Assembly (NCBI RefSeq): GCF_015864665.1
Contig: NZ_JADYWU010000003.1
Location: 127,399-191,398 of the forward strand
Direction: 5' to 3'
Length of the DNA: 64,000 bases
DNA from: Salinibacterium sp. SWN167
Lineage (GTDB): Bacteria; Actinomycetota; Actinomycetes; Actinomycetales; Microbacteriaceae
The notes beneath the pieces are model-generated. The model saw only the letters and a program-made list of their open reading frames with translations, did no database searches and was not told where the DNA came from. This document shows, piece after piece, positions 14,294 through 35,662 of this stretch (within the stretch, counting starts at the first letter, position 1; the number at the start of each line of letters is the position of its first letter). The position numbers were made by a program, and so were the translations under genes.

Positions 14294-17272
14294 CTAGCAC
14301 GGTGGGGCCCCACCGTCGCTGTGGGCGCTGTGGGGCAGCCGCACGCGTTGCGTTGGCCCCGTGTCGGTGAGACACCAGTATTCGCCTGAGCCGGCCGTCA
14401 GTGGCGGCGGGAGCTCGCGAGTGCGGGCAAGCTGGCGGTAGTCGCTGAGGCTGCAGCCATCGAGCACGATCGTGGCGTGATGCCGCAACGCCGCCAGCGC
14501 GCCCCAGCGTGATTGCCACTCATCAACGGATCCGATCAAAGCAATGGGAGAACGTGACGCTGCAGGGCGGACCAAGAGCTCCTGTTCGCTCCCTGGCGAC
14601 CCCTCGACATAGCGAATCTCCCATCCAGCGGCCGCGTATGCAGTCGCAGTGGCCGACGGGCGACTGCTCGCGACGACGACGTGGTCGCTGCGCGAGAGGG
14701 TCGTTGACGAGCTTCGTTCTGCAACCGGAAGGTACTGGCCGCTCTGCGCGACCTGGACTCTCTTTCCCCGCCAGAGACCTCCCCCTGATGGCAAGGACGG
14801 GAGGTATTCATCAGTAGCGCCACCCGAGAGGATGAACTCTTGCCGACTACTGAATCGGAGACGAAGAATGCTCGGCATGAGTTGTGACAGTGACTGCAAC
14901 GGCGATGTGATTCGTTGGGCACTAGCAATAGCCCAGATGCCGTTCGCAGGCCCCTCCCTCAGCACACGAGTGAGCCGTTCAACGACTACCGCGCGGTATT
15001 CATCATCGAAGCGAGCCAGCACAGCATCGATGTCGTCGATCACGACGTGGGTCGGGGATGACGGATGCGCTGCTTCAGCGCTGTAGTCGAGCCGACCGTA
15101 TAATCCGGCGAGAGTATCCCAGAAGGCGGCGGGCTCAGCACTCATCACGACCACGGCTGCCGTGCTGACGTGGGCAAGGCTGGTGAGTGCCGTTGTCTTT
15201 CCGCTACCAGATGCCCCTAACAGCAGCAGGGGTCCGTCTGTTTTGGGAACCCAAACAGCCCGACCGTGGCGTTGAAGCTCAGGCAGGTCGGTCAGCCCAA
15301 AGTGAAGAGTGTCGGTGTCTGCCTCACCCGGCGACTCACGGCCTTCTTTCTCCGCCGTCGCCTGCAGCACTGAAGCGAGAGGGATGTGCTCGCTCAGTGG
15401 TTCGCACCAGGGCCGTCTGGGTGGAGCGGCGATCGGCCAGCGCTCCGCTACCTCGTGAATGTCGCGGGGCGAGACGAGCGCGAACTGAACGAGCTCCGCT
15501 GAAGACGAGCCATGCGCCACCCACGCGCGACCCTTTGCTTCGGCGGGCAGTTCTGCGGCGCGATCGCTGCCGATGACGGCAGAACTGTCGGCACCGTTGT
15601 TGACGCGGAGAGAAATCCGTAAATCCGCATTGGCGAGAAGCGCATCGCGTACGACTCCGGATGGTCGTTGCGTGCACAGGATGAGGTGCACTCCCAGCGA
15701 ACGTCCGCGCGCCGCAATGTCGCTGAAGAGCACATGGAGTTGGGGGTACTCGGCCATCATGGCCGCAAACTCGTCAACCACGATGACGAGGCGCGGCACG
15801 CTCGCAAGTTCTGAAATATCACGCACGCCCGCCCGGGCGAGAGCACGCTCTCGGTACCGCAGCTCCGCGCTAAGGCTAGAGAACGCCCGTGCGGCAGCGG
15901 TCTCGTCGAGATCGGTAATTATTCCCACGGTGTGGGGCAGTTCTGTCAGAGCGGTGAAGGCGGAGCCACCTTTGAAATCGACGAGCAAAAAAGTGACGTC
16001 TTCTGGAGATACTTCGGCGGCCATTGCAAGCACCCACGCAATGAGTAATTCGCTCTTTCCACTGCCTGTGGTGCCGCCCACAATGGCGTGGGGGCCATTG
16101 ACGACAAGATCGATGGTGAGCTCCCCCGACGCCGCGACAGCGGGGCGAGCGGCTAGCGATCGACGACTATCGGGGCGCGAGGCGAGCATCGAAACGGGAC
16201 GTTTTTCGAGTTCGGCAAAGGCAAAGGAATCGGGAAGGGCGTCCTGCCCCGAAGCCAGTCCATCGCGGGCCGCGATATCGTGGGCCGCTCGCACCCAGAC
16301 CAACGCTTGCTCTCTGCCGAGGAACGACGGCTCAAAGTCGCGGCGTTGATGGCGGTCAGGATGCCGCACCACGGCCACACTTGCAGCGTTCGTGCGGATC
16401 ACAATGCGATGCCCGCTCGGCACCTGTTTTTCTTCCGAGACGATCGTGATGGAGACACGGGGGCTGGGATCGCCAAGTGCTCCCCACTGCACGCTCGCGA
16501 TCTCACCGCTCGCACTGGCTGCATCCGCTACCCGCCCTGGCGCCCCGCTCGATCGCAGCAGGCGGTGGGGCAGGCGTTCTCCCCAAATTTCTGTTGCAAA
16601 CACGCCCGTGAGCCGCACCCAGCTTGAGGTGGGCGCGAGCGTGCGAGCGAGTTGAATCGCCAGTGAGCGCGCGAGTGACAAAGCCATGAGGTTGTTACCG
16701 AATAGTGCGATGCCGAGACGGGCATTAACTGCGATGGGCGCCCGACTCAAATGTTCTGCTTGCTCGGTCAGGCTGCGGTAAGTCTCTTCAACATCCTGCG
16801 ACACGGAATCGTGCGAGGCGGTGCGATCGATTGCGATGCTGCTGCGGACGCTGCCGTAGCCGAGATGGACAGGAAGAACATTGTCGGGTTCGCGCATCCA
16901 CTTCGACGCGTCGGTGAGAACGTCATTGACCAACATGATGGACGAGGGGGTTTTCTCCGCCAGTTCAACGAGTTCGCGGCGATGGTAGGCCTGAATCTCT
17001 TTCGTCGTGGTCGCGGCATCCGCCGCGAAGCGCGACCGCTCGGCGCGCACTGTTTTGCGCGCGGTTACTCGCGAATCGATGTAGCTTCCGGTCGCGGCCA
17101 AAGGCCCCAGAGCCGCAAAGATGAGTGCAAACGTCGAGCCAGTAATCAACCAGATCGCCACCGAGGCGACTACCGGCACTGTGGCGGCGATAAGCGGAAA
17201 TCGAAAAGGAGTTGGTGCTTGCGGCGGAGCGGGCAGGAAGATGCGCGCGTCGGGGGTTCGGGATTCGGTCAC
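14294..17272 (-). CDS. EccC-like FtsK/SpoIIIE membrane ATPase (type VII secretion motor family)
   Basis: Membrane-anchored ATPase of 992 residues, last gene of the cluster. Two hydrophobic helices lie at about 26-62, as in EccC N-termini. The first FtsK/SpoIIIE domain has Walker A GGTTGSGKS (399-407), VDFKGGSAF (431-439), the EccC-like segment LPHTVGIITDLDE, Walker B VIVVDEFA (496-503) and RGRSLGVHLILCTQRPSG. A second ATPase domain has GASGSGKTT (686-694) and HVVIDDIDA (742-750). EccC normally has three ATPase domains; only two are recognisable here. The GTG at 17272 is chosen (GGAGTAGGG upstream); the frame is open 34 codons further. No WXG100 substrate gene is nearby. Role inferred: force generator for export or assembly. 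Confidence 0.88.
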   Translation of the reverse strand: MTESRTPDARIFLPAPPQAPTPFRFPLIAATVPVVASVAIWLITGSTFALIFAALGPLAATGSYIDSRVTARKTVRAERSRFAADAATTTKEIQAYHRRELVELAEKTPSSIMLVNDVLTDASKWMREPDNVLPVHLGYGSVRSSIAIDRTASHDSVSQDVEETYRSLTEQAEHLSRAPIAVNARLGIALFGNNLMALSLARSLAIQLARTLAPTSSWVRLTGVFATEIWGERLPHRLLRSSGAPGRVADAASASGEIASVQWGALGDPSPRVSITIVSEEKQVPSGHRIVIRTNAASVAVVRHPDRHQRRDFEPSFLGREQALVWVRAAHDIAARDGLASGQDALPDSFAFAELEKRPVSMLASRPDSRRSLAARPAVAASGELTIDLVVNGPHAIVGGTTGSGKSELLIAWVLAMAAEVSPEDVTFLLVDFKGGSAFTALTELPHTVGIITDLDETAAARAFSSLSAELRYRERALARAGVRDISELASVPRLVIVVDEFAAMMAEYPQLHVLFSDIAARGRSLGVHLILCTQRPSGVVRDALLANADLRISLRVNNGADSSAVIGSDRAAELPAEAKGRAWVAHGSSSAELVQFALVSPRDIHEVAERWPIAAPPRRPWCEPLSEHIPLASVLQATAEKEGRESPGEADTDTLHFGLTDLPELQRHGRAVWVPKTDGPLLLLGASGSGKTTALTSLAHVSTAAVVVMSAEPAAFWDTLAGLYGRLDYSAEAAHPSSPTHVVIDDIDAVLARFDDEYRAVVVERLTRVLREGPANGIWAIASAQRITSPLQSLSQLMPSILRLRFSSRQEFILSGGATDEYLPSLPSGGGLWRGKRVQVAQSGQYLPVAERSSSTTLSRSDHVVVASSRPSATATAYAAAGWEIRYVEGSPGSEQELLVRPAASRSPIALIGSVDEWQSRWGALAALRHHATIVLDGCSLSDYRQLARTRELPPPLTAGSGEYWCLTDTGPTQRVRLPHSAHSDGGAPPC

Positions 17273-17404
17273 ATCCCTACTCCAGCAGGGCTGGCTCGCG
17301 CTGCGTTGAGCGCACTCACGTCGGTGGAGAGCGCCACTCAGCGTGCGCTGTGTAGGGGTGGATGCGGCAATCACAACGCGCTGAACATCGGATGCCGCAG
17401 ACCA

Positions 17405-20400: not shown

Positions 20401-20515
20401 CTGCACCATTTGCGGCAGCACCCCTGCGGGCGCGACGAGACATCGCAGGCCGCCCACACTCAGCACAGTAGACGGCATCGGCGGGCAGTTGCGTCGCGCA
20501 GAAAGAGCAATTCAC
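17405..20515 (-). CDS. Zinc-ribbon / long acidic repeat region / FHA-domain protein
   Basis: Protein of 1036 residues in three parts. The N-terminus is a zinc ribbon with Cys3, Cys6, Cys17 and Cys20. A very long Glu/Asp/Ala/Pro-rich region follows, with no hydrophobic helix, built from several tandem repeats (Asp-Ala, Glu-Pro, and two 12-residue [12 protein letters not shown] copies). A second zinc ribbon (CQQC..CGSC) lies near residue 690. The last 110 residues are an FHA domain: [17 protein letters not shown] and [11 protein letters not shown] domains bind phosphothreonine, so it could read phosphorylation by the kinase of this cluster. GTG at 20513-20515 is used since an earlier start would run into the upstream gene. 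It may be a scaffold; this is inference. Confidence 0.85.
18835..18935. repeat. Glu-Pro dipeptide-encoding tandem repeat
   Basis: Degenerate copies of GGTTCCGGTTCG/GGCTCC on the plus strand encode about a dozen Glu-Pro dipeptides on the minus strand. The pattern suggests slippage and a stiff, extended acidic linker. Confidence 0.8.
19086..19149. repeat. Nearly 11 perfect copies of the hexamer TCAGCA, coding for an Asp-Ala tract
   Basis: An uninterrupted run of a 6-base unit lies inside the zinc-ribbon/FHA gene. Each unit encodes Asp-Ala on the minus strand. Because the unit is a multiple of three, copy-number changes would alter length without a frameshift. Confidence 0.92.
19609..19664. repeat. 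In-frame direct repeat encoding two ETERAVAD copies
   Basis: GGCTACCGCACGCTCGG and its flanks recur back to back with a 24-base period. The encoded peptide [16 protein letters not shown] belongs to the acidic region of the zinc-ribbon/FHA protein. Confidence 0.75.
19794..19866. repeat. Two in-frame copies of a 36-bp unit encoding [12 protein letters not shown]
   Basis: The unit is repeated with a few silent changes, so the peptide is conserved while the DNA has drifted. That suggests the acidic/aromatic motif itself is under selection, unlike the perfect hexamer tract. Confidence 0.75.
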
Positions 20516-20525
20516 GGGTAGTCCT

Positions 20526-22817
20526 CTATCGCTTAAACAGACTTGTGACACTATAACCACCGAGCGATCGCAGCGATATTTTGGTCTTGAACCGCGCCCA
20601 GCGCGACAGTCCAGTATTGAGTTGAGTTTCCAGTTCCGTCACGTTCGTCCAGAACGCATCGGCTTCAACAGTTTCCGGTTCAGCACCGGAGAAAATGGCA
20701 CGGTCAGCGTGCTCAGCGAGTGTGCGAGCATCCGGAGTCGCCATTACAGCAGCAACTTCTGTTCGCGTTCCCGAAAGGGGCGGTGAATAGCCGTGGTCGA
20801 TCAGCGAATCTTCGAATTCCTGCCATCCACCACTGATCTGTTCCACCGTCGAGTCGGCGCGCTTGCGCAGCTGTCGACGGCGCACCTTGGCCGCAATAAT
20901 GAGTAGGAACGGCGCCGCGAGTACCACGAGCACCAACAGCGACCAGCCCGCAACGCGCAACACTGCAAGAACCGCCTGGAGTACGGGGTCGAGGTCAGGC
21001 TGCAGCGCTTGCTCACTGTCAGGATTCGACTGACCGTTGGTCGTGTCCGACTCGATTTCGGGCGGCAGAACCACAGTTTGGGGTCGCGCAACCTGCGCGA
21101 TATCGTCGGGATTCTCTTCCGGGATTTCCCGCAGCGGCGGGTTGGGGTCGATCGTCACCCATCCATACTCTGCGGTGTTTACTTCGATCCATGCAGAGAC
21201 ATCGTCGCCTCGAATCTGAGGATCTGAGGTGATGAATCCGAGAACCACGCGGGTCGGGAAGCCCAATTCATTCGCCATCATGGACGCCGCAACCGCATAC
21301 TGCTCACCATCGCCAATCATGCGGGGCGCTGTGAACAGTTCTGCGATGCGATCAGCAGAGTGGCCGGACCGGCTGACGGGCTCGTCAACGCCAACCCCGT
21401 GGCTGATGTAGCCGTCGGCGGCGAGCCCATCGAGCATCGCCGCGAGGCGCTCCCCCGGCGTCGTGACGCCGCGAACGTATTGGTCGAGTCGCTCAGTGAG
21501 CTCCTCTGGGGAGTCTTGAACGGGCGGAACCTCTGCGAGACCGGGAGTGAGAGCACTGAGCTCTTCGGCACTCGGCTGCACAGGAATAACGCCCTCAAAG
21601 GTGTAGGTATCGCCACTTTCAAGACCGCCAACGACGGCGGCTGTCCCGGATATTTTGTTGTAGTAGAAAGAATCGCGAAGATCCACTGCGCGCGACCCCG
21701 AAAAGTCGACTTGCTCGAACAGTCCGACAGTGGGGAGCCAGACACCCTCATAGCCGGCAATCGTGATGGTCATGTCGACTTGATCACCGTCAACTTCAGA
21801 CTGGTCAAAACGAGATGGCACACGAGAGAACGAACCTGATGCGCCCGACACGAGTCCACTACCGACCGCATACACAACACCGTTGTAGCTATCGAGTGTC
21901 GCGAGTCTCACTCGGGTACCCAGTGGAACCCCTGAAACTTCAAATAACACAGAGTTCGCGGTACTCGGCTGCCAGTAGCGACGGAATCCGGAAAGCGGGC
22001 TCACATAGTCGCGGGGATCGAATGGTTCCACAATCGCCGTCCGCAGCACTGCTCGATTGTTAGTCGGTGGAGCGAGGTTCACCGCCACCAGCGCGACTCC
22101 CGAGGCAATAGCCAAAATGACCACAGCACTGATCATGGTGCGCACACCCGCGAACCCAAACTCGCGTTTGCGTCGCGCAACTCCGGGCGCGTCCATTGCC
22201 GCTTCAAGCGCGTTGACGGTGTCTCGACGCCGGCGCCACCGGAACCACACCATGGCGAGCGCAATCACAATCAGAAGGGCGAGAGCGAGAGGAACGGGCT
22301 GGTCGGGGTAGGTCGGGCCCAACGCGATCGCCATCACAAAAATGACGATCGACGGCACGACAGACAACTCTGCGACCGCCGTGCGGAATGCGATGCTCAG
22401 CGAAATCACGGTGCCGAAGAAGACGAGGACGAGAGCAGGAACGAGAAGAGCTTGATAGTTTCCGACCGGCAGCGAGATGGTCAGCAACTGTTTCCAGCCG
22501 AGCGCGACGCCAAGCACAAGGTCGCTCAGACCTTCCAGCGTCGGAACTACTCCCCATTGCGTCTCTGATGGGACAGCCACAGGAACGCCGATGACCACGA
22601 ACATGATTACTGCGACTATCGACGTTGTCAGGAATGACCAGCGGCGCCAGAGCGAAGCAAGCGCGACTATTGAGCCTGCAAGGACTCCGGCAACGATCAA
22701 GATGGTGAGATCTGTCGTGCGATAGATCGGCCAGAGCGCTGCCGAAGCGAGCGCGACTGTAAGCCAGAGCAGAGCTCCGGAGACGACAACGAAAGATCGA
22801 GTAACAGGGGCGGTCAT
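20526..22817 (-). CDS. Polytopic transglutaminase-like (TgpA-type) protein with the catalytic Cys and His replaced
   Basis: Membrane protein of 763 residues. Several hydrophobic helices span residues 8-190, another lies at 228-248, an extracytoplasmic transglutaminase-like core follows (about 440-565), and one more helix near 635 precedes a cytoplasmic tail. The core aligns with TgpA proteins, where the nucleophile sits in G(F/Y)CEHYA; here the segment reads GDGEQYA with Gly504 at the Cys position. The histidine of the HAWVE motif is Ser541 (SAWIEV). Only the Asp of IDPNPP (557) remains. It should therefore be catalytically dead and work as a structural or ligand-binding module. The stop lies 10 bases before the zinc-ribbon/FHA start, and it overlaps the DUF58 gene by four bases. 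Confidence 0.88.
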
Positions 22818-24244
22818 GCACCCGCCGATCTCGCGAGGGCTCTCTTCAGCTCTTCAAGATACCCAATGGTGAGCACGCTGAGGCCAGAAACCCGTCGGAG
22901 CCCCGGGACCGCTTCTGGGTCGCACACGATCGCTACCACTTCGACATTCGTCGCAAACTTGGTAGACGCCGCCCGCAACTGCTGCGAAGTCACAGTCGAC
23001 CCACAAATCAGGAACGCAACAGAAACTCCACTGGTCTGTTCGGAGGTGACGCGCGCGACATCGATGAGGCGTAGTGCCGTGTTGGCACGCTGAACGCGCG
23101 TGAGGTCATCCAGCAAACGGGTTCCGGTGAGCGTCGATAGCGCCCGCACTGCAAAAATCTTTCGCTTCGCAAACTGGGGTGTTTGCTCACTCGCCACGAC
23201 TGTTACCGTGCGGGCATCACGAATCGCCTGAGCACCGAGCGAACCGGCAACGCTCACCGCCATTTCGAACTCGTAATCATTCGCATAGTCAGTGGTAGCC
23301 AAGCTCAACGCGATCACGAGGTGGCTTCGTCGTGTCTCTTCAAACTGGCGCACCATGTAGCGGCCGGTGCGAGCAGTGGTCTTCCAATGGATGTTGCGTC
23401 GCTCGTCACCACGCACGTACTCCCGCAGCGCGTGAAACGAAATGTCGTTGTTCGCGAGGTCCTTGGTGGGGTTGCCTTCCAAGTCGCGAATAAGCCCCGT
23501 GCTCACACTCGGGATGCTGATGGTGCGCGGATGCACGAAAACTTCGGCAGAATCAGTCCACACCAACTCGCGGCGCACGAGTCCCACCGGGTCAGCACGC
23601 ACGGTGCGCACGGGCCCGACCGTGATTACTCCACGTCGATGAGTGGGGATCGGAAATTCGTGTGTCGCCGCAGCGCCAGGACGCAGACTCGGCAACACCG
23701 CTTCAGCATAGGTCGCTGCGATAGGAATCTCTGCAACAACACCGAGGCTCCGCCGCTTGCCCTCGTTCTCGCCTCGCACCTCACCACTTGCGTTCTCTCC
23801 AACGACAACGCGATGGTGGCCGACATGCAGACTGATCGTCAGCTGGCTGCGCCCAAAGAGATAAATCGCGGCCATTAGCGCAATCGCGGCGAGGGCGAAC
23901 CCTACGACGACTAGTTCTTGCCATGCGATCGTGTACCCCACGATGAGCGTCACCGGCACGAGCAGAAGAACTACCCAGCCAACCGGGGTGACCACGGCCG
24001 TGATGCGCTTGGCGTACCGGGAGAAAGTAGCTCGCGCGAGCACCGCAAACCGTACAAGCCCGACAATCAGGTCAGCAAGAAACCCCGTACGGTAGCCGAC
24101 AATTCGTGTTCGCGCGTTGTCTAGACCGCGAATAGCGGTGGGAAAGTCCGCATCCGAGCGCGACTTTTCACCGCTCGGACTCGATTGTTCCGGCGCGGTG
24201 AATTGTGGCTGCCCTTTCGCCGAGCGGTTGAGAATTGAACTCAC
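22814..24244 (-). CDS. DUF58-domain membrane protein
   Basis: Protein of 476 residues with two hydrophobic helices at about 88-130 and a long C-terminal region. The DUF58 hallmark lies near residues 275-300: YVRGDERRNIHWKTTARTG followed by MVRQFEE. DUF58 proteins carry a vWA-like fold and almost always accompany MoxR ATPases and TgpA-type proteins, exactly as here. It overlaps the MoxR stop by four bases and the transglutaminase-like start by four bases, so the three are translationally coupled. Biochemical function is unknown for the family. Confidence 0.9.
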   Translation of the reverse strand: MSSILNRSAKGQPQFTAPEQSSPSGEKSRSDADFPTAIRGLDNARTRIVGYRTGFLADLIVGLVRFAVLARATFSRYAKRITAVVTPVGWVVLLLVPVTLIVGYTIAWQELVVVGFALAAIALMAAIYLFGRSQLTISLHVGHHRVVVGENASGEVRGENEGKRRSLGVVAEIPIAATYAEAVLPSLRPGAAATHEFPIPTHRRGVITVGPVRTVRADPVGLVRRELVWTDSAEVFVHPRTISIPSVSTGLIRDLEGNPTKDLANNDISFHALREYVRGDERRNIHWKTTARTGRYMVRQFEETRRSHLVIALSLATTDYANDYEFEMAVSVAGSLGAQAIRDARTVTVVASEQTPQFAKRKIFAVRALSTLTGTRLLDDLTRVQRANTALRLIDVARVTSEQTSGVSVAFLICGSTVTSQQLRAASTKFATNVEVVAIVCDPEAVPGLRRVSGLSVLTIGYLEELKRALARSAGA

Positions 24245-25212
24245 ACGGCTTGCCGTTCTGTGGGCGGTGGGTTCTCGATCAGGATCTGAGCGATCACGCT
24301 TGAGGCAGTGACTCCCTCGAATTCGGCCTCGGCATCGATCACGAGACGATGAGCGAGAACTGATTCGGCAAGAGCCTTGACGTCATCCGGCACGACATAG
24401 TGACGACCATTGGATGCTGCGAGCGTCTTAGCTGCCCGGATCAGCGCCAACGCACCGCGCACACTCACACCGAGTCGCACTTCGGCAGCACTACGGGTCG
24501 CTTCGACCAGACGGCTTACGTAGTCGTTGATGGTTGGATCAACGTGCACGGTGCGTGCGAGTTGCGCCATTTCGACAACAAGTTCCGCGCTCACGACGGG
24601 CTCGATCGCGGTCGAGTGTGCAGCAACGCCGGCGCCATCCAAGATGCGCAGTGTGGACGCACGATCGGGGTAGCCGATGGAAGCCTTCATCAAGAAACGG
24701 TCAAGCTGAGCTTCGGGCAAGCGGTATGTTCCGGCCTGCTCGATGGGGTTCTGGGTGGCGATCACCATGAACGGGGCGCCGACAGGGTGCGTGACTCCGT
24801 CGACGGTGACTTGCCCCTCTTCCATGACTTCGAGAAGGGCTGCCTGAGTTTTGGGGCTCGCCCGGTTGATCTCATCCGCGAGAACGATGTTGGAAAAAAT
24901 AGGTCCAGCGTGAAACTCGAACTCGTTATCGCGCTGATCAAAAATGCTGACACCCGTGATGTCACCCGGCAGAAGGTCGGGCGTGAACTGGATACGGTTT
25001 GTCGTTCCCGAGACACTCTGTGCGATGGCGCGAGCGAAGGAGGTCTTTCCCGTTCCCGGGTAGTCCTCAAGGAGTAGGTGTCCTTCGCTCAGTAGGGCGG
25101 TGAAGCCGAGTCGCACTACAAACGTCTTTCCGAGGAGAACTTGTTCGACGTTCGTGACGAGTCGGTTGAAGCTTTCCGCGAACCATGCGGCTTCGTCGGG
25201 AGTCATGGTCAT
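24241..25212 (-). CDS. MoxR-family AAA+ ATPase
   Basis: Cytoplasmic AAA+ ATPase of 323 residues. Walker A is GTGKT (53-57) in LEDYPGTGKTSFARA, Walker B is LADEIN (111-116), and sensor 1 is the ATQNP motif near residue 153. The LPEAQLDRF segment is a MoxR signature. MoxR proteins act as chaperone-like assembly factors, usually through vWA-fold partners; the DUF58 protein encoded next is the likely partner. It starts 9 bases after the stop of the giant Ig/Fn3 gene, with AGGTGCG in the gap as a weak ribosome site. Confidence 0.93.
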   Translation of the reverse strand: MTMTPDEAAWFAESFNRLVTNVEQVLLGKTFVVRLGFTALLSEGHLLLEDYPGTGKTSFARAIAQSVSGTTNRIQFTPDLLPGDITGVSIFDQRDNEFEFHAGPIFSNIVLADEINRASPKTQAALLEVMEEGQVTVDGVTHPVGAPFMVIATQNPIEQAGTYRLPEAQLDRFLMKASIGYPDRASTLRILDGAGVAAHSTAIEPVVSAELVVEMAQLARTVHVDPTINDYVSRLVEATRSAAEVRLGVSVRGALALIRAAKTLAASNGRHYVVPDDVKALAESVLAHRLVIDAEAEFEGVTASSVIAQILIENPPPTERQAV

Positions 25213-25221
25213 AGCGCACCT

Positions 25222-28200
25222 CTAGTCATAGTCATATCCGTTATAAGTTCTCTCGTAGATCTGCCCACCGTTGGCAACTACACGAACGACGAGGGTCGGG
25301 TTTGCCAGCAGAAGCACCACATCAGCGTGACAGCTTCCCCCAGGAACGGTGGTGTCTGCCGTCTGCCATGGTCCCAGGGTGAGTCCACCGCAGCGGTAGC
25401 GCACGCTCTCGTAGGTTCCGCTTGGCCAGTCGAGCCAAGCGAAGGTCCCGCTGTCGTTCAGCACGTCATTGTCTGAGGTAAAGGTCAAGCCTGCTACTGA
25501 CGGGTTCACCGGAACCCCGAGAGCGAAGGGTGCCGACCACTCGGGCTGGCAGATGGGTCCTGAACCGTAGCTACGGCATGCGCGCACCTCAACGGAGATA
25601 TCTTGACCGTACTGCTGGCCACCATCCGCGGTGAGGAAGGAGCCGAGAGCTACTGGCCCGTAGATGGTTCCAGGAACGCTGCCACCGCTGAGCCGGTAGT
25701 ACAGGGTGTAGTCGCTGTTGAGCGTGTCAGAGCCCATCGCTCCCCCGTTAACGGTGAAGTCGAAGCGGTTTCCGTTAGCCACCGGACCGGCGGTGCTGAG
25801 CGCTGTGACGACTGCCGGCGGGGTATGAGCAACGACGGTGGGCGATGCCGCGCAACCCTGACCGTTGTAGGCGAATACCACCATCGTGTAGGTGCGGTTA
25901 GGTGTGAGCCCGTTGAACGTCGCTGACGTGCTCGAGCCAACCGACGCTAGCTTTGCACCGTTGCCAGTGATCGATCCGTTCGCTGAACAGGTTGGCTCGG
26001 TGCCGGTGTAGGCAGCTGCTGTGTAGGCGGTTACCGGGCGCCCGTTCTCGTTGAACGCACCGGGCCACGTGAGTCCGGCGGTCGTGTCGTTGACAACAGT
26101 GGCGACAGGCGCAGCGAGAGCGATAGGCGGGCCAGCGGGAATGGCGCTACGCGGTTCGCTCGTGTTCCACACTGAGAGCGCTGTGTAAGCGGCATTTCGA
26201 GGGCTCACGGTGTACGTCACGGCTACACCGTTATCGAGAACCCACGATGATGGAGTCTCCCAGGTGCAGGTCGTGTCGTCGCACTGAGCTAGGCCGAGCG
26301 TGGTTTCGAAACCACCGACGGCAATGCGATAGCGGTCAACAGCGGAACCACCGGCCGGTGTGGGCACCGCATTCCATGTCAACCGAAGCCCGTGATCAAG
26401 TGGCGATGCGCTGAGCGATGTTGGCGCTACCGGAATGATGTCCGACCAGACCGAGTCAGCGAGAGTAACGGGCTCCGATTCGCCAATGGCGTTGATCGCC
26501 ACAACAGTGACCTTGACCGAGTTGGTCGGGCCGTTTCCGGTCGTCGGAATCGCGCACGTAGTTCCGGCACAGTCGGTTGTGTTGACCAGGACACCAGCGG
26601 ACTTCGTCGTCACCCTATACGAGGTAATGGCGGAGTTGTTCGCTGGCCCGGCGTTCCAACGCATCATGATGGTCTTGTCACCAAAGCCACTCGGCCCGAG
26701 GTTGGATACCGGGTCTGGTGTGTCCTGAACCGAGATTACAACGGTGCCCCAGACATACCGCGTCTCATCGTTGGTGGCATCCGCGACGCGATATTGAAGG
26801 TTCACGTCACCAGGCGCTGCTTCGCTGGAGACGGTGACGGTGAGTGTGCTGTTGTCATTGCTCGGGACGATCGAGATCCCTGCAGGAATAGCTCCCCCGC
26901 CAAGTCCACGGATATCGACCACTCGCAGCGGTGCCCCCGGGAACGGGTTCGTAGACGCATCGTTTGCAAGCACATCAACGACAGTGGTCTCGCCACGTTT
27001 CACGATGGCGAGGTCCGCGGCCGGGCTCGCGAGCGGGCGCGTCGACGGTACGACGTTCAGCTCGATCCGGCCAGATTTACCTTCGGAGAGATCATCGCGA
27101 ACGCCGAGAGATATCGAGGTTCGTGTGCCCTTGAACGCACTGTTGTTGGCCCGAAGCATCAACGTTGTGCCTTCGAGCGAATACGTGAAGCCTTCCGGCA
27201 ACGGGCTCAACACCGAGTAAGCGAGCTCGTCGAGGTCGTCAGGGTATGGGTAGGTGGTCAGCTTGAGGAGGTCGATCTCTTTCTCTTGGCCAGGTTCAAA
27301 ATCGATTACAGCGCCGCCAAACACGGGAGCCTGGTTGTCGCGAGGGAGCACGTCGATAGGCAGCACCAAAATAGCGGTACGGCCCTCAGGGTCAGATGCC
27401 GAGCTACCATCCGTTACTTCGAAGGATATGGATGCCGGCCCAAAGTAGTTCTCTGCCGATGTGAAAACGAGAGTGTCCTCGTCACGCACGAGATCAGTGC
27501 CATCGCTGTGAGTGGCGAGTACGGTGCTGGAGTCGGTGAGGCGCACAGGCTTATCGCCGACGGCGATGATGTAGTCGTTGAGGTCGATCACGAGCGTGCT
27601 CTCGCTATTGATACTCAGTTTGGGGGCGCGGCGGTCGATTTGCGGCAGGGCGTCGTTGTATCCCGGAACCTTGATAAACGCGTAGCTGAAGACGGTGGGG
27701 TCGGCGGGGTTCGTGACGCGGAACGGGATGATTTGTCCCACATCCCCCACCGAGACCTCGATCTGCTTGTCTGGCGTCACTCGAGCGGCGTCGCCATACC
27801 CGGGGTAGATACCCAGCGTGAGAGTTCCGGGGTCACCGTCGGCAAAGAACACTCCCGAGAGCACATCGACGGTAACGCGGTTGCGATCCAATACGTCCGA
27901 AAGGGTCAAGACGCTATCGGTGGCGATCGGGTAAGCAGGTTTAGCCTCGGGGTCGACAGTGACCCGAATGAAGTTTTGGCTCGAACCGCCCGTCTCGTTT
28001 TCGATGACGTAGATGATGCCGTAGTCACCCGGTTCTTCTGGTGGAGTGACTTTCACCACGTCCCCATCAATTTCTGCGACAGTGTTGGGATCGTTGGGTT
28101 CCACTGACACCACCGACAGCGGGCTACCGTCGGGATCGGAGTCGTTGGCGAGAACCTGCACCGAGACGGTAATTCCCGGTTTGACTGTCACTTCGTCGAT

Positions 28201-31131
28201 GATCGCAACGGGGTTGCGGGCGCCATCAAGTCGCGGGCTAATTCCGATGTTGATCTCGCCGTTTGCACGCGCACCAAGTGAGTCGATCAGCGTGTAGCTG
28301 AAGGTGTCGGTTCCGGCCGAGTACTCACCGGCTTGGTAAACGAAGGTATTGGATTCCACATCGATGACGGCACCCTTGCTCGGGTTCGTTGCCTGACCGA
28401 GCAACTGTACCGAGTCCCCGTCGGGGTCGGCCGATGTCAACGGAATCTGCACCCGCACGGTGTCACCGGCCAGCACGCGGGCCGTGACCGTCGGTGGCAC
28501 GGGAGGATTATTGCTGGAGGCGTCGAGTTCACGCACGGCGATATTCACGATTGCGGTTGCTGATTGCCCATCGGGGCCAGCGACTTGATATGCGGCCGTG
28601 AAGTTTCCCGTGCGATCAGGGGCAAGGTAGCGCAGCACGTCGCCCGAAGCAAAGAGCAGTCCCGAGTCGTCGGGGAGATCTTGCGCCAGCTTTGGCACCA
28701 GAGTCAGTTCAAGCCCGTCAGGGTGTTCGTCATTGTCGAGAACACTGATGTCGATGGCTTGTCCCACGCGAACCGTCACGGAATCATCGTTAGCGATGGG
28801 GGCTTGAAGTTGAGACGGAGCCGCAATTTCAACGACGGTAATAACGCCGATGGCATCCGCGAGCCCGTTGCTGATGCGGTAGTTGAAACTCACTGGCCCA
28901 TCATCGAGCGGGGCTTCCAAGCTCACACGAACGAGTCGTTGTTCCAAGATTTCCGCGCGCACGCCTGAGCTCACGGGGAGGTTCATGATTTCGGTGACGA
29001 GAAGCACACCACCGGCCGGGTCAACGTCAGTGCCGGCGACATCGATGCGTTCGTTCTGAAGCGTTTGAACAAAGACAGTCTTGGGAACGGTGATCGGCGA
29101 AGTGTTGGCATCGGGTGGAGACACCACGTCAATTCGCACGATTGCCGTGTAGGTGAGATTGCCATCCGTGACGACGTATTCGAGGTTGTAGCTGCGAATC
29201 TCATCGCTTTGGAACCGGAAGGTTCCCGTTTCATAACTGGGCAGGATTTGAGCGCCGGTCTTCGCGGGAACGCTATTGAGGCGGATGTTGCCGTTGCCAC
29301 CGCGCACATGGCTCAGCGGCGAAACGGTGATTTCTTTGCCGGCATACGCAAGCACAACGAAGGGATCAGCTTCGATGGGGACTTCGCCCGCCGGTTTCAC
29401 TGAGACGGAGACACCGCCCGAACTTTCGCTTGTGCCATCCGACACGACGAGGGTGACGACTTTAAGCTCTCCGCCAGCACCGGAGTCTGAGAAGACTAGA
29501 TCTCCCCCGGGCTTGTAGCTGACAGCATCGGGAGCCGCAACAGAGGCACTAGTCAGGTAGAAGGGATCGCCATCTGGGTCGACCCAATCACCCAAGATCT
29601 GGTTCGATACACGGCCGCCAGCTTGCACCGTAAGCTTCGTCGACCGCACTTGTTCTGGCGGCGAGTTCTCGGAGTCCAAGCGAATCTCAACCGTCACGGT
29701 CGCACTGGCGGTGCCACCGCGACCATCGCTCACGGTGTAGTTGAAGCTCACTTGACCGCTGGCCCCGGCTTCGAGAGTGATTTGAATCTGTTGACGCTCG
29801 TTGATGCGATCGATTCGCCCGATGCTGGCATCAATGGTCGGCAGTTCCTCGACAACCAGCACGTCACCATTGGGATCGTAGTCGTTGAGCAAAATGGGCA
29901 ATACGGTCGCTCGCCCAGGGCGAGCCCCAAAGCTGTCGTCTACTGCAACCGGCGGTTGCTGCACGCTGTCGACTTCAGGCTCGACATCGAGAAGGTTCTG
30001 CTCGACCTCAGGCTCCTCATCTTCTGCGGTGATGAGTTGGTTCCAGTTGTCAATCAACTCGCCGGAGCTTTGCACCGCCCACGTGCGGCCGGTAAGGCGG
30101 TCGTTGAGCACGGCACGCGATCCGTTGACCGAGTAAGAGAGCTGAGCGTTCGCTTCCATCTCACTCAGTTGCAGCATGACGCCTTCACCGGCATCACTCG
30201 GGCAGCGACGCCAGTTCTCGCCACTTGTCCACGCCGCGAACTCGCAATCGCCCAAGCGCAGCGGAGCTGCCGCAACACCGGACTGGCCAGTGGCGAGGCC
30301 GACTGCGGCAGCGCCGCTGAGCGGAACGCTAATAACGCCTTGGCTGTAACCGATGAGCACGCGCTCACCGCCGACAGACGGAAGCTGCACTACGGTGCCG
30401 TTTCCCCCGTCGACAAGGCCGGTGAGGTCAACTGTGCGGCCGTCCATGTACAGCAATTCGGTATCCGAATCGAGAACGGCCCACTGGCCAGCCACTGAAG
30501 TGATGCTGAGCTCAGCATTGGGGTCGAGCTCAAGGCTCACGCTTGACTCAGCGGTGTCGGAAATCGCCGCATTCACGCGGAAAAGTTGGCTCGTTGACGG
30601 CGAATACGCGAAAAGCAACCCGTCGTCGTCAACGCTGACAATTGCGTCAGCACCCAGACTCAAGGATGCCGGTGATTCCGCGTCGAAATTGAGGAAGTCC
30701 TCGTAGGACCGAATCCAGAGTTCGCCCGTGCCATGTTCGAGAACAACAACGTTGTCCCCGGCGAAGTACACCTCGGGCCGGTTGGGCGGAAGAGCGACGC
30801 TTTCCTCGATCTCCGACACCGCCGGATCGACTACATCGATTGCACTTTCCGAGCGGTCAAACAGCAACACGCTATCGCCTTGTTGAATGACTTCTAGATC
30901 AGCACTTTGTGCACTTACAACAGAGTTGATCTCGAGAACTTCCGTGCTTGCGCGCCCGATTGCCTGCTCTTGATTATTCGCGACCCAGACGGCACCGTCT
31001 GCCAAGTCCACTTGTTGGGCGGTATAGCCGGTCGAAACAATGGCGACCGTGGCGACTAGCGCCACGATCGCAGAAACACTCACCGCACCGGTCACTGTTG
31101 AACGACGCGCCTTACCCCAGCGCTTAATCAC
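25222..31131 (-). CDS. Giant membrane-anchored Ig-like/fibronectin type III surface protein
   Basis: Protein of 1969 residues. A single hydrophobic helix at about 15-38 follows a basic N-terminus, giving a type II anchor, and there is no LPxTG motif at the C-terminus. Residues 40-370 look like a beta-propeller-type domain. From about 395 to 1465 there are about eleven Ig/cadherin-like repeats recognisable by VAVDDS..LPILLNDYDPNGD-type motifs. Then come three to four Fn3 domains (about 1470-1870) with paired cysteines (DCAGTTC, QCDDTTC). The GTG start is 15 bases from the kinase stop. It may be an adhesin, stalk or ligand-presenting partner of the kinase ectodomain (inference). Base composition and codon use match its neighbours. 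Confidence 0.88.
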   Translation of the reverse strand: MIKRWGKARRSTVTGAVSVSAIVALVATVAIVSTGYTAQQVDLADGAVWVANNQEQAIGRASTEVLEINSVVSAQSADLEVIQQGDSVLLFDRSESAIDVVDPAVSEIEESVALPPNRPEVYFAGDNVVVLEHGTGELWIRSYEDFLNFDAESPASLSLGADAIVSVDDDGLLFAYSPSTSQLFRVNAAISDTAESSVSLELDPNAELSITSVAGQWAVLDSDTELLYMDGRTVDLTGLVDGGNGTVVQLPSVGGERVLIGYSQGVISVPLSGAAAVGLATGQSGVAAAPLRLGDCEFAAWTSGENWRRCPSDAGEGVMLQLSEMEANAQLSYSVNGSRAVLNDRLTGRTWAVQSSGELIDNWNQLITAEDEEPEVEQNLLDVEPEVDSVQQPPVAVDDSFGARPGRATVLPILLNDYDPNGDVLVVEELPTIDASIGRIDRINERQQIQITLEAGASGQVSFNYTVSDGRGGTASATVTVEIRLDSENSPPEQVRSTKLTVQAGGRVSNQILGDWVDPDGDPFYLTSASVAAPDAVSYKPGGDLVFSDSGAGGELKVVTLVVSDGTSESSGGVSVSVKPAGEVPIEADPFVVLAYAGKEITVSPLSHVRGGNGNIRLNSVPAKTGAQILPSYETGTFRFQSDEIRSYNLEYVVTDGNLTYTAIVRIDVVSPPDANTSPITVPKTVFVQTLQNERIDVAGTDVDPAGGVLLVTEIMNLPVSSGVRAEILEQRLVRVSLEAPLDDGPVSFNYRISNGLADAIGVITVVEIAAPSQLQAPIANDDSVTVRVGQAIDISVLDNDEHPDGLELTLVPKLAQDLPDDSGLLFASGDVLRYLAPDRTGNFTAAYQVAGPDGQSATAIVNIAVRELDASSNNPPVPPTVTARVLAGDTVRVQIPLTSADPDGDSVQLLGQATNPSKGAVIDVESNTFVYQAGEYSAGTDTFSYTLIDSLGARANGEINIGISPRLDGARNPVAIIDEVTVKPGITVSVQVLANDSDPDGSPLSVVSVEPNDPNTVAEIDGDVVKVTPPEEPGDYGIIYVIENETGGSSQNFIRVTVDPEAKPAYPIATDSVLTLSDVLDRNRVTVDVLSGVFFADGDPGTLTLGIYPGYGDAARVTPDKQIEVSVGDVGQIIPFRVTNPADPTVFSYAFIKVPGYNDALPQIDRRAPKLSINSESTLVIDLNDYIIAVGDKPVRLTDSSTVLATHSDGTDLVRDEDTLVFTSAENYFGPASISFEVTDGSSASDPEGRTAILVLPIDVLPRDNQAPVFGGAVIDFEPGQEKEIDLLKLTTYPYPDDLDELAYSVLSPLPEGFTYSLEGTTLMLRANNSAFKGTRTSISLGVRDDLSEGKSGRIELNVVPSTRPLASPAADLAIVKRGETTVVDVLANDASTNPFPGAPLRVVDIRGLGGGAIPAGISIVPSNDNSTLTVTVSSEAAPGDVNLQYRVADATNDETRYVWGTVVISVQDTPDPVSNLGPSGFGDKTIMMRWNAGPANNSAITSYRVTTKSAGVLVNTTDCAGTTCAIPTTGNGPTNSVKVTVVAINAIGESEPVTLADSVWSDIIPVAPTSLSASPLDHGLRLTWNAVPTPAGGSAVDRYRIAVGGFETTLGLAQCDDTTCTWETPSSWVLDNGVAVTYTVSPRNAAYTALSVWNTSEPRSAIPAGPPIALAAPVATVVNDTTAGLTWPGAFNENGRPVTAYTAAAYTGTEPTCSANGSITGNGAKLASVGSSTSATFNGLTPNRTYTMVVFAYNGQGCAASPTVVAHTPPAVVTALSTAGPVANGNRFDFTVNGGAMGSDTLNSDYTLYYRLSGGSVPGTIYGPVALGSFLTADGGQQYGQDISVEVRACRSYGSGPICQPEWSAPFALGVPVNPSVAGLTFTSDNDVLNDSGTFAWLDWPSGTYESVRYRCGGLTLGPWQTADTTVPGGSCHADVVLLLANPTLVVRVVANGGQIYERTYNGYDYD

Positions 31132-31143
31132 GGCTACCCATCA

Positions 31144-32571
31144 TTACTGCAACACCGCACACTTCTGCGCGCTCGCTGCACCAGATTTGCCGTCGCGAGT
31201 TACCGTTACCGAGATACAGACGTTCTCTCCCGACTCCGCGTCAACCACGAAGCTGGGCTCTAGCTGCTGCACGGGAGGCTGATTGTCTGTCGTAGTGATT
31301 TGGTACCGGTCGCCCGGCTCAAGACCGGGGTCGAGCCACGAGAACTCCACGACATCAGTCGAAACCGAAGCGCTGATATCGCTCACGGTCGGGATGTCAG
31401 TCGAGCCCGACTGCAATTGGACAAGCGTGACGGTGGCACCGAGAACGACTACGAGAGCTGCAACCGCTACACCGATCCAGGCGATCGTCTGCATGCCGCG
31501 GGTACGAGGAATCGGGCTCATCCCTGTCTTGCGGCGAGACATCTTGCCTTCAGCCGCTTCGCTTTCGAACGAGCCAAAGCTGTCATCGATGGCGGCAGGG
31601 CGTCGGCGCTTGCGACGCTGTGACGACGTCATCGGCGCGGCCTGACCCGGACGCACTCGCGTGCGGTCTTCAAGCTCAGCGACAGTCGCGAGCGCCCAGT
31701 CATCCATGGCAACTTCGATGGCAGTCTGCGAGAGCCCCAATTCGGATTCCACGGCCTGCAGTTCATGCACGAGTTCCAGCACGCTGCCCTGGCGCGCTTC
31801 AGGCTTGCGCGACATGGCACGGTTGAGCGCACGCTCCAGGCTCTCGGGCACATCGCTGCGACCGGTCGCGCGTGGCTTTGCGCGGTTGATTCGAGAAATG
31901 AGGTCGGTCGACTTGTTCGATTCCCCCGGAACTTCGAAGGGTGAGCGCCCGGCCAAGAGCGAGTACACGGTCGCGGCATAGGACCACAACTCGGACTCAA
32001 TCGTGCCGGCCGTCTCATCCATCAGCACTTCTGGAGCAGACCACGGGATCGACATACCAACGGCTTCGAGATTTTCAGACTCGCTCAGCGTTGCGGCAAT
32101 GCCAAAGTCAGACAGCACCGGATGCCCATAAGCGGTCGTCAATATGTTGGACGGCTTAATGTCTCGGTGCAATACGCCCGCACGGTGGGCCGTCTCGATG
32201 GCGCTGCCGATCTTGATCGCGATCCGCAGCACTTCGGGCACCGGCAGTCGCTCCATGCGGTAGCGCTGGCTGAGAGTGGAGGAACACAGTTCCATCACCA
32301 AATAGGGGCGACCATCAGACGAGACACTCGCCTGGTACACCGTGAGGATTGAGGGGTGCGAACTGAGCTGTGCCATAAGGTTCGCTTCAGCCTGAAACAT
32401 GAGGCGAACCTGGTCGTTGACGACCTCGCTGAGCATAACCTTGACGGCGACTTGGCGACGCGGCATATTCTGCTCATACAAGAACACATCGGCGAATCCA
32501 CCGGAGCCCAAAACGTGCACATGTGAGAACCCGGGCAGGGCAGGCGGATCTGAGGGCAGTCTTCGAGCCAC
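31144..32571 (-). CDS. Transmembrane Ser/Thr protein kinase (Hanks-type) with a small Fn3-like ectodomain
   Basis: PknB-like kinase of 475 residues. The cytoplasmic domain (about 14-275) has the glycine loop LGSGGFADVF (21-30), Lys44, the catalytic loop HRDIKPSN (135-142), DFG (155-157) and SAPE, so it should be active. A juxtamembrane basic stretch, one helix at about 365-388 and a roughly 85-residue extracytoplasmic domain follow. That domain has an Fn3-like pattern (VEFSWLDPGLEPGDRYQ) and two cysteines, and lacks PASTA repeats. GTG start. It lies between PP2C and the giant Ig/Fn3 gene, and the phosphatase and two FHA proteins are likely partners. The external signal is unknown. Confidence 0.93.
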   Translation of the reverse strand: MARRLPSDPPALPGFSHVHVLGSGGFADVFLYEQNMPRRQVAVKVMLSEVVNDQVRLMFQAEANLMAQLSSHPSILTVYQASVSSDGRPYLVMELCSSTLSQRYRMERLPVPEVLRIAIKIGSAIETAHRAGVLHRDIKPSNILTTAYGHPVLSDFGIAATLSESENLEAVGMSIPWSAPEVLMDETAGTIESELWSYAATVYSLLAGRSPFEVPGESNKSTDLISRINRAKPRATGRSDVPESLERALNRAMSRKPEARQGSVLELVHELQAVESELGLSQTAIEVAMDDWALATVAELEDRTRVRPGQAAPMTSSQRRKRRRPAAIDDSFGSFESEAAEGKMSRRKTGMSPIPRTRGMQTIAWIGVAVAALVVVLGATVTLVQLQSGSTDIPTVSDISASVSTDVVEFSWLDPGLEPGDRYQITTTDNQPPVQQLEPSFVVDAESGENVCISVTVTRDGKSGAASAQKCAVLQ

Positions 32572-32691
32572 AGAAACACCCCTAACATGTCGTCGAGTTC
32601 GATCATTCTAAGTGAGGAAAGCACTCACAAATCGGATTCTGCCCCTTGTCTGGGGTCAGATTGTCTGTCCCCAGTATGGAGGACTAGACGA

Positions 32692-33486
32692 CTATGTCGC
32701 TGTAGGCACTTCTAACACGTCGATCACAATGGCCGTGATGTTGTCGCGACCGCCGCTGTCGAGTGCGGAATCAATGAGTTCTGTCACAGTTTCCTCCGCC
32801 GAATTATGCTGTGCGAAAATCCGTGAAATCTCAACGTCTGAAACCTCGCGGGTGAGGCCGTCCGAGCAGATCAAGAGCCGCTGACCGCGCTGAATCGGAA
32901 GTATCCAGAAGTCGGGCGACGGGGTCGCGTTGAAGCCCACTGCGCGAGTGATGATGTTGGCATCAGGATGATCTTCCGCTTCTTCGCGGGAAATCACCCC
33001 GGCATCCACAAGATCCTGAACAACCGAGTGGTCTCGCGTGACCTGTACCAGTCGATCGTTCTCGTAGTCGTATACGCGGCTGTCACCGACGTTGAAGACA
33101 GCGAAGCTTGCCGATTCGTGGTGCTCTGTGATCACGACGCCGGTGACGGTCGTGCCAACCCCCAACTCGCTGTCTTGAGCGATGAGGCTGATGTAGTCGG
33201 TCGCCCGTTCGAGAGCGCGTTCCACGGCGCGAGCAGGCAAAAAATCACCCGTAATCGCGTCGTCGAGCCTCTCCACGACCGCAGCGCTCGCCAAATCGCC
33301 AGCGGAGTGACCGCCCATGCCATCGGCCACAGCGAACATGGGAGAACGCGCGACGTAGCTGTCCTCATTTGCGGCGCGCCGATGGCCCGTATGAGTTCCC
33401 GCAGCCCACGCAAACGTAAACGTTTGTTGTTCTCGCCCTGGTAGAGCGATGGTGTGCTTCGGGTTGTTGCCGCCGATTTCGGTCAC
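32692..33486 (-). CDS. PP2C-family Ser/Thr protein phosphatase (PstP-like)
   Basis: Soluble phosphatase of 264 residues that would counteract the neighbouring kinase. All metal-binding motifs are present: NEDSY (40-44), VADGMGGH (53-60), NVGDSRVY, CSDGLTREV and GGRDNITAIV. GTG at 33484-33486 is chosen because AGGAAGG lies at a good distance; the longer frame would overlap the FHA gene. The start lies 19 bases after the FHA stop. It has no membrane helix, unlike mycobacterial PstP. The 120-base gap before the kinase has no visible terminator. Confidence 0.93.
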   Translation of the reverse strand: MTEIGGNNPKHTIALPGREQQTFTFAWAAGTHTGHRRAANEDSYVARSPMFAVADGMGGHSAGDLASAAVVERLDDAITGDFLPARAVERALERATDYISLIAQDSELGVGTTVTGVVITEHHESASFAVFNVGDSRVYDYENDRLVQVTRDHSVVQDLVDAGVISREEAEDHPDANIITRAVGFNATPSPDFWILPIQRGQRLLICSDGLTREVSDVEISRIFAQHNSAEETVTELIDSALDSGGRDNITAIVIDVLEVPTAT

Positions 33487-33505
33487 GGCTACCTTCCTGC
33501 CCGTT

Positions 33506-34123
33506 TTACTCCAGACGCCGCCGAGGCAGAATCCGAATAATGTTTCCGTCCCCAATATCCACCAGCGTGCCGGTCGAAACGACCACCGACTCACCCTGAC
33601 GGAGTTTTCGTGCAGCATTGCCTGGCACTTGAACGATGGAACCGTTCGTTGATCGCAGATCAGTCACGATCACCGAAGCTCCCAATTGTCGCACTTCGAC
33701 GTGCGTCTCAGAGACTTCGCGCAGCGGAGATTGCACCGCAACCAAGCGTGGCCCAACGCCCTTGACGATGCGCGGCGGTCGTGGATCACGACCGAATACG
33801 CACGCGTGCTCAAGTGAATGAGCCTGCCCCGTTCCGTCGAGTTGCACTCGGTAGTACATCGCAGATGACTCGGATGCCGCCGGCGGCGAAGTCTGCTGAG
33901 GAGGCTTCACTTGGGCTGCGGCGCGCGCCCGTAATCGCGCCGCCTCCTGAGCGGAGGTCGCTGACGCCTGCTTCGCGTGGGCCTCCACCGGACGCTCGTA
34001 CGGCTGCACGGTAACCGGTCGACGTCGAGAACTGAGAATGACTGTGTCATCGAGGTCAGGAACGTTCGACCACGCTGTGGGCCGCTGGCCCGCCGTTATC
34101 GTGTCATCAAAGTCTTGCCTCAC
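33506..34123 (-). CDS. FHA-domain protein with N-terminal Asp-Asp-Thr motifs, first gene of the cluster
   Basis: Protein of 205 residues. The N-terminal tail carries DFDDTITAG and DLDDTVIL, acidic threonine sites resembling kinase target sites of GarA/FhaB-type proteins. A variable basic/proline linker (about 45-90) and a C-terminal FHA domain follow, with VFGRDP, SETHVEV and RSTNGSIV. It probably binds phosphothreonine on the kinase or another partner and may itself be phosphorylated (inference). GTG start at 34123 with TAAGAT exactly 6 bases upstream, so the cluster could start with a leaderless message. The aldehyde dehydrogenase stop is 43 bases upstream on the same strand. Confidence 0.9.
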   Translation of the reverse strand: MRQDFDDTITAGQRPTAWSNVPDLDDTVILSSRRRPVTVQPYERPVEAHAKQASATSAQEAARLRARAAAQVKPPQQTSPPAASESSAMYYRVQLDGTGQAHSLEHACVFGRDPRPPRIVKGVGPRLVAVQSPLREVSETHVEVRQLGASVIVTDLRSTNGSIVQVPGNAARKLRQGESVVVSTGTLVDIGDGNIIRILPRRRLE

Positions 34124-35603: not shown

Positions 35604-35662
35604 GCGTCAACGATAGCGAGGGTGTCCTCCGGAATCTACCCGCAGACTGACGGTTTCCGCAG

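Follow-up and report, generated by a model that had tools for sequence, protein, structure and literature searches.

The 64,000-nucleotide stretch analyzed here (the window) lies on contig C3 of the 3.0-Mb, Salinibacterium-like genome of Salinibacterium sp. SWN167, and the genus Salinibacterium belongs to the Microbacteriaceae. Between positions 14294 and 34123 the window carries a cluster of nine open reading frames (ORFs) on the minus strand, separated by gaps of -113 to +120 nt, which encode two FHA-domain proteins, a PP2C phosphatase, a Ser/Thr kinase, a giant Ig/Fn3 protein, MoxR, a DUF58 protein, a transglutaminase-like protein (TGM) and a membrane ATPase, hereafter the motor. An earlier reading of the letters by a model, made without database searches (the sequence-only reading), had described nine tightly packed minus-strand genes of these families, and both the ORFs and their Pfam domains were confirmed in place (Table 1). 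Among named genomes, the motor is closest in its best segment to the ATPases of Salinibacterium sp. NG253 (96% identity), SWN248 (85%), S. amurskyense (68%) and the marine actinobacterium PHSC20C1 (64%).

Table 1. Genes of the cluster in the window, in minus-strand order (aa, amino acids).
Gene product	Position	Strand	Domain evidence
FHA1, FHA-domain protein, 205 aa	33506..34123	-	PF00498
PP2C phosphatase	32692..33618	-	PF13672; Stp1-type model 215 bits (below its cut-off of 230)
Transmembrane Ser/Thr kinase, Pkb2/TsdD counterpart	31144..32571	-	PF00069
Giant Ig/cadherin-like/Fn3 protein, 1969 aa, FN3/TsdI counterpart	25222..31131	-	Big_9, Cadherin_5, Cadherin_4, fn3
MoxR AAA+ ATPase	24241..25212	-	PF07726 (AAA_3)
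DUF58 membrane protein	22814..24244	-	PF01882
Pseudo-transglutaminase (TGM), TgpA-like membrane protein	20526..22817	-	PF01841 (Transglut_core)
Zinc-ribbon / acidic low-complexity / C-terminal FHA protein, 1051 aa	17405..20560	-	PF13240 and PF00498
Membrane ATPase (motor), type VII EccC/EssC superfamily, two P-loop modules	14294..17374	-	PF01580 (FtsK_SpoIIIE)

Hydropathy analysis placed a single transmembrane (TM) stretch in the kinase (residues 358-389) and one in the giant protein, at its N-terminus (11-39), with none at its C-terminus. The DUF58 protein has a long hydrophobic stretch (54-133), the TGM protein has many, and that of the motor (56-94) is long enough for two helices. The small extracytoplasmic domain of the kinase looks Ig/Fn3-like by eye, its tail giving an Ig-like Pfam match only below the cut-off. 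A beta-propeller suspected by eye at the N-terminus of the FN3 protein found no support in PDB and Pfam searches. Candidate internal starts, perhaps the true ones, were noted in the PP2C gene (33486) and in the motor gene (17272).

The phospho-signaling components named in the sequence-only reading keep their motifs. The phosphothreonine-binding residues (G-R, S, H, N-G) are present in all 35 aligned FHA1 sequences and the FHA phospho-binding residues in 42/42 sequences of the zinc-ribbon protein, and the catalytic motifs of the kinase and PP2C are intact in nearly all aligned orthologues. MoxR keeps its P-loop Lys-Thr and the D-E-I-N motif (37/37), and the first module of the motor keeps the Walker A Lys and the Walker B Asp-Glu (57/57). 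The P-loop of the second module varies, with Lys in 32 of the 57 sequences, Arg in 19, Val in 3 and others in the rest. For the TGM protein the catalytic positions are those of its family: the Cys is replaced by Ala, Gln, Gly or Glu in 38/38 window-type sequences, and it is likewise missing from 19/19 phylum-wide sequences (six shared with the 38) and 2/2 from Bifidobacteriaceae. No catalytic Cys was thus seen in any of 53 distinct sequences, and the Cys-His-Asp triad of active transglutaminases and TgpA is not there. In the 19 phylum-wide rows the E-Q pair beside the Cys position is invariant and the His is retained in four. The prefix "pseudo" that the sequence-only reading gave to this transglutaminase is therefore correct, and the protein is predicted from its residues to be non-catalytic. 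The DUF58 fold is vWA-like; its presumed metal-site Asp is Ser in 32/37 sequences and Asp in 3/37, so that the metal ion-dependent adhesion site motif of MoxR-vWA pairs is not reproduced.

Among type VII secretion systems (T7SSs), Garrett, Higginson and Palmer (2024, PMC11217815) describe a type named T7SSd in Actinomycetota, among them Bifidobacterium; its defining parts, in the passages used here, are an ATPase with an FHA domain, a WXG100 protein, a kinase, a giant Ig-like protein and a protein with one TM segment. The text of that paper holds no match for MoxR, DUF58, transglutaminase or fibronectin (PMC11217815). We searched 100 Microbacteriaceae genomes with the window ATPase and split the matches by score, length and identity, putting the weaker ones (canonical EccC, FtsK) aside. 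Among the matches listed, a window-type ATPase occurred in 57 genomes, with long matches in open frames of 822-1441 aa, and other ATPases occurred at 60 places in 54 genomes, mostly in open frames of ~1500 aa, with the first module 40-54% identical (30 and 32% in two). One of these 60 (G012, 864 aa) was window-like, which left a T7SSd-like set of 59 places in 53 genomes; "T7SSd-like" was assigned by features and set against the published T7SSd by description.

The motor scored highest with the EssC model TIGR03928 (269 bits), ahead of two EccC models (206 and 154 bits), all below the cut-offs; for EccC the NCBIfam values were 205.8 against 509.15 (TIGR03924) and 153.9 against 346.55, and with the FtsK model, whose cut-off is 1566, the motor reached 69 bits. 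A tree was built from 102 rows of the first ATPase module; its group labels derive from the profile scores, so that it tests the grouping and is not an independent label. In this tree the 57 window-type rows and two odd rows formed a clade with support 98/99 (45/78 for the 57 alone). This clade joined 27 of the 33 T7SSd-like ATPases (98/78). The remaining six fell weakly on the EccC side (91/37, 97/73); the FHA pattern was found in none of these six, two of which (L172 and L144) adjoin a giant-Ig/MoxR/DUF58/TGM block. The nine canonical EccC rows, a name resting on three scanned proteins, made a separate clade (100/100) with the motor outside it, and FtsK, represented by the genome's own single row, sat on a very long separate branch. 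The tree and the profile scores rule out a chromosomal FtsK origin of the motor, and the EccC scores below cut-off together with its position outside the EccC clade rule out canonical ESX identity. Of the "EccC-like motor" in the sequence-only reading, membership of the type VII superfamily rather than of chromosomal FtsK was upheld and a place within the canonical EccC clade was not; its view that the machine is distinct from canonical ESX was borne out. On these comparisons the motor is a member of the type VII ATPase superfamily, sister to the FHA-bearing EssC-like (T7SSd-like) ATPases.

The two kinds of ATPase differ in architecture. An FHA pattern was found in 0/57 window-type ATPases versus 23/31 T7SSd-like ones, and the window-type motor has two P-loop modules versus the three FtsK-like modules of the EccC/EssC superfamily; the T7SSd-like ATPases mostly extend 150-280 residues past the matched part or match the window-type part twice. 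A second ATPase group (L169-L172, L144) of ~1470-1740 aa has no readable FHA motif and has WXG100 genes nearby; within it L172, and L144 with L124, adjoin the giant-Ig/MoxR/DUF58/TGM block.

At the level of the whole cluster, the window shares with T7SSd an EssC-kin membrane ATPase, a giant Ig-like protein and a membrane Ser/Thr kinase (TsdD in T7SSd, matched by kind). It differs in having no WXG100 gene (TsdA) at the locus, no FHA domain and no third module in the ATPase, and in the additional MoxR, DUF58, TGM, FHA proteins and PP2C. By description, TsdI has a signal peptide and a C-terminal TM segment, whereas the giant Ig protein of the window has an N-terminal TM segment and no C-terminal one. 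With EccC of ESX (T7SSa) the motor shares an N-terminal TM stretch and FtsK-like ATPase modules, but by Pfam none of the nine window proteins carries an EccB, EccD, EccE or mycosin domain, and the giant-Ig/MoxR/DUF58/TGM block was seen at none of nine canonical EccC loci (stretches of 12.5-13 kb).

The window genome itself holds a paralogous, T7SSd-like cluster on contig C1, in the order PP2C, FHA, kinase, a 239-aa ORF, giant Ig, MoxR, DUF58, pseudo-TGM, RDD-FHA, ATPase (1497 aa, FHA-bearing), WXG100 and more. In G002, G007, G011, G107, G307 and G355 an ATPase of this kind is next to the block and shares its strand. In G004 the two are neighbors on opposite strands, and in G233 they are again on opposite strands, ~12.6 kb apart. 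Judged purely by distance, 18 of the 59 T7SSd-like ATPase places have a TGM gene within 25 kb. Read from these sequences, the motor is kin to FHA-bearing ATPases that stand beside WXG100 genes and, in part, beside the same giant-Ig/MoxR/DUF58/pseudo-TGM block.

The core of the cluster has a second counterpart in the bifidobacterial PFNA operon (pkb2-fn3-aaa-atp-duf58-tgm, to which some species add prpC, fha and a hypothetical gene; PMC8430577), which its authors, in the passages drawn on here, call unique to bifidobacteria (PMC8430577; PMC6803598). The kinase-FN3-MoxR-DUF58-TGM order in the window is identical. We found these genes in PFNA order at two Bifidobacteriaceae loci (L192 and L194), one from genome G734 (probe-positive) and one from G622 (not), and the two loci (L192/L194) matched the window profiles with 1000/987 bits for FN3, 425/443 for MoxR, 304/290 for DUF58, 372/371 for TGM and 279/288 for the kinase. 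The family (f72) was taken to be Bifidobacteriaceae on the basis of the 16S probe Bif164, which matched 17 of its 34 sampled genomes; across the order 19/396 genomes matched, two of them outside f72 and both in one other family. The pseudo-TGM profile matched 26 of the 34 genomes, one weakly. The same gene order and strong profile scores in Bifidobacteriaceae indicate that the core of the window cluster is the PFNA gene set.

The window differs from PFNA in adding the type VII ATPase and the zinc-ribbon/FHA protein, in that FHA and PP2C come first, and in its host, a marine genus. A short type VII superfamily ATPase (open frames of 473-761 aa) was counted in 29/34 sampled Bifidobacteriaceae genomes, and in G468, G523 and G643 the pseudo-TGM gene and a 1524-aa ATPase are ~32-33 kb apart. 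Two of the short ATPases (L191:5732-7819 and L193:5775-7667) have neighbors that look WhiB-like and LytR-like by eye. The text of the PFNA review has no match for FtsK or for "secretion".

MoxR is found with DUF58, and in many species also with a transglutaminase gene, as in the MoxR Proper and mycobacterial moxR operon neighborhoods (PMC12067865; PMC6803598, in part), and the latter operon is said to resemble PFNA in passages of a 2025 review (PMC12067865). The window version differs in standing within a kinase-controlled cluster, where a type VII ATPase and a giant Ig protein are also encoded, and in its non-catalytic TGM; in B. longum, MoxR is reported to be phosphorylated by Pkb2 (PMC6803598, in part). 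In the open-access literature searched, with most subscription papers and supplements outside it, we found no link between PFNA and type VII secretion and none between MoxR/DUF58/TGM and T7SSd. The sequence-only reading had recognized neither the PFNA core, nor T7SSd as the nearest secretion kin, nor the paralogous ATPase/WXG100 cluster in the genome.

Conservation of gene order had been set beforehand as a check on the sequence-only reading, and for it we compared 56 window-type loci, each spanning at most 20 kb; contig ends clip four of them. Genes were called by six-frame profiles, as counts of longest ORFs miss genes behind antisense ORFs in GC-rich DNA. All nine genes occurred in order on one strand at 32/56 loci, and the FN3-MoxR-DUF58-TGM block occurred at 36/56. 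Of the 57 genomes with a window-type motor, 55 have a TGM gene (E <= 1e-15) somewhere, and 37 have one within 8 kb of the motor. Across the 100 family genomes, 79 had both TGM and ATPase, 6 TGM only, 3 ATPase only and 12 neither. By these profile matches the gene set is strongly conserved, yet it can split.

Quick trees of MoxR, DUF58, TGM and the kinase kept the window-type, T7SSd-linked and bifidobacterial versions almost separate (3-5 changes versus ~15-16 in shuffles), with a few exceptions forced by well-supported branches, most of all for TGM; such near-separation in four partner trees is what one would expect of a set that diverged mostly together. Beyond the family, a phylum search with the single window TGM matched 122/296 genomes at E <= 0.001, mostly weak generic transglutaminase-like matches. 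Of 20 phylum places chosen by score, 13 carry FN3, MoxR, DUF58 and TGM on one strand and 7 do not; seven of these 13 blocks lie outside the Microbacteriaceae, in six families.

The sequence-only reading had reported no WXG100, EccB, EccD, EccE or mycosin gene in the cluster, and this held: none is seen by Pfam among the nine proteins, and no WXG100 gene was found in the window by a whole-genome PF06013 search or by an iterated WXG100 profile. WXG100-like genes were absent from all 56 window-type motor loci (median reach 1.6 kb downstream and 15.5 kb upstream of the motor) and, with the iterated profile, from 11/11 named window-type loci examined up to 10 kb on each side. In 23 genomes a PF06013 match shares a contig with a window-type motor, and among the matches listed none is nearer to it than 57 kb. 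Such genes were seen at 23/33 T7SSd-like loci, most of the other ten being examined only shortly downstream. In ESX-1, ATPase3 is described as binding the C-terminal export signal of EsxB, a WXG100 protein (PMC6954902, in part), and for this reason the loss of the third module and a locus without WXG100 fit together.

We hold with moderate confidence that the cluster encodes one envelope-spanning, phosphorylation-controlled complex, and that it is, jointly, the Microbacteriaceae form of the PFNA operon and derived from a T7SSd-like secretion system. In such a complex the giant Ig/Fn3 protein, held by its N-terminal anchor, would form an outer stalk, and the MoxR-DUF58-pseudo-TGM trio, an assembly chaperone together with its non-catalytic membrane partners, would load or remodel this stalk. 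The kinase would sense the envelope through its outer domain and phosphorylate threonines read by the two FHA proteins, thereby recruiting the motor to the complex, and PP2C would reset the phosphorylation state. As it has no module that reads WXG100 signals, the motor would most likely power assembly or the export of a narrow, non-WXG100 cargo. A wider proposal is that PFNA and T7SSd are one superfamily in which MoxR/DUF58/pseudo-TGM is an overlooked assembly module, and that the window lineage represents a WXG100-independent, kinase-controlled machine building or extruding a 2000-residue Ig/Fn3 stalk; this we put forward tentatively, as a possibility that we would sooner doubt than assert.

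A number of observations weigh against a single T7SSd-derived complex. The absence of the third module from the motor is read from profile alignment. The motor stands without the FN3-to-TGM block at 19/56 loci, 15 of which retain PP2C at its side, and an A-like block occurs without a nearby window-type motor at L175 and L176 (within the stretch examined) and with only a 51-bit ATPase fragment at L177. Six of the 100 family genomes have TGM without either ATPase type. Since the motor can stand apart from the block and TGM occurs without either ATPase, the parts of the cluster are separable. In both Bifidobacteriaceae genomes examined, PFNA and the short ATPase are at separate places. In the 83 genomes of at least 2 Mb, ATPase and TGM co-occur weakly (p = 0.034), with p = 0.005 in 17 genomes under 2 Mb (relatedness not controlled); as this co-occurrence is confounded by genome reduction, we gave gene linkage more weight. 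That WXG100 genes are missing nearby does not prove that there are none, given that WXG100 was seen at just 3/9 canonical EccC loci (12.5-13 kb) and that the downstream reach of the 56 loci is short.

Other explanations account for parts of the same evidence. The cluster might be a working type VII secretion system with its WXG100 substrate encoded elsewhere, for example by an orphan gene beside a groEL-like ORF: the window genome has an orphan WXG100 gene at C1:1013768 (L041:5742-6068), and WXG100 genes are present in 96/100 family genomes and in 56 of the 57 with a window-type motor. This is distinctly unlikely in our view, as the substrate-reading third module is missing from the motor, WXG100 genes keep the distance from it given above, and genomes such as G013, G039 and G066 carry WXG100 but no window-type or T7SSd-like ATPase among the matches listed. 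The orphan as a dedicated cargo is not supported, because WXG100 is nearly universal in the family. The orphan lies just downstream of, and on the opposite strand to, an ORF read by eye as GroEL. A signaling or scaffold complex for envelope stress that moves nothing, with the ATPase as a regulator, would suit the intact motifs of the kinase, the phosphatase and the two FHA proteins, the degeneration of two enzymes-by-name (TGM and DUF58) and the varying P-loop of the second module, though Arg at that position is also reported in a working EccC ATPase3 (PMC6954902, in part). It is unlikely, since the invariant Walker residues of the first module argue for hydrolysis.

Host immune sensing, suggested for the bifidobacterial PFNA, draws on the binding of TNF-alpha by FN3 fragments of B. 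longum and on positive selection on PFNA genes, as given in parts of the published accounts (PMC8430577; PMC6803598). For the window we regard it as very improbable: the named genomes nearest to it come from Salinibacterium and from a marine actinobacterium, and the gene set occurs across Microbacteriaceae and other actinobacterial families, so that a host-specific function is hard to square with the blocks found outside Microbacteriaceae. That the cluster is several unrelated operons, neighbors by chance, would explain why subsets of it can be separate, but more than half of the loci keep the nine-gene order, and the block is met again in clusters that are paralogous or distant; this recurrence refutes chance in practice, and we give the explanation almost no credence.

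A connection between PFNA and T7SS was not found in the papers searched, and the window cluster suggests that both belong to one type VII secretion family rather than that PFNA is a host-immune sensor. It ties together two literatures that make no mention of each other in the papers and passages used here, that of PFNA, promoted as a bifidobacterial host-immunity sensor, and that of T7SSd with its five listed parts. Should the two be one family, tests of PFNA function could be aimed directly at envelope assembly or secretion, the name of its "transglutaminase" should no longer imply an enzyme, and a candidate assembly module would be added to T7SSd. The window type is also a natural experiment in what a type VII motor does after loss of its substrate and of the substrate-reading module.

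Among the cluster proteins the zinc-ribbon/FHA protein is highly variable in length, with open frames of 915-1321 aa at loci L180-L184 versus 285-326 aa at L185-L189, two of the short loci also being labelled Salinibacterium; the window copy contains a long acidic low-complexity stretch. A role in anti-phage defence was considered for seven cluster proteins (the giant and zinc-ribbon proteins left aside), and PADLOC models hit just two of these, 31 models the kinase and three (mad8 and two SspH) the ATPase; we read these as generic fold matches and rejected the role. Downstream of the motor, a solute-binding-protein ORF on the same strand (12855-14519) shares 226 nt with the end of the ATPase gene; its start is probably internal, ahead of a signal that looks like that of a twin-arginine lipoprotein by eye. 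On the other flank (34167-37624) lie genes for an aldehyde dehydrogenase, an AsnC/Lrp regulator and a class III aminotransferase, which together with the solute-binding protein look like an amine-use region surrounding the cluster.

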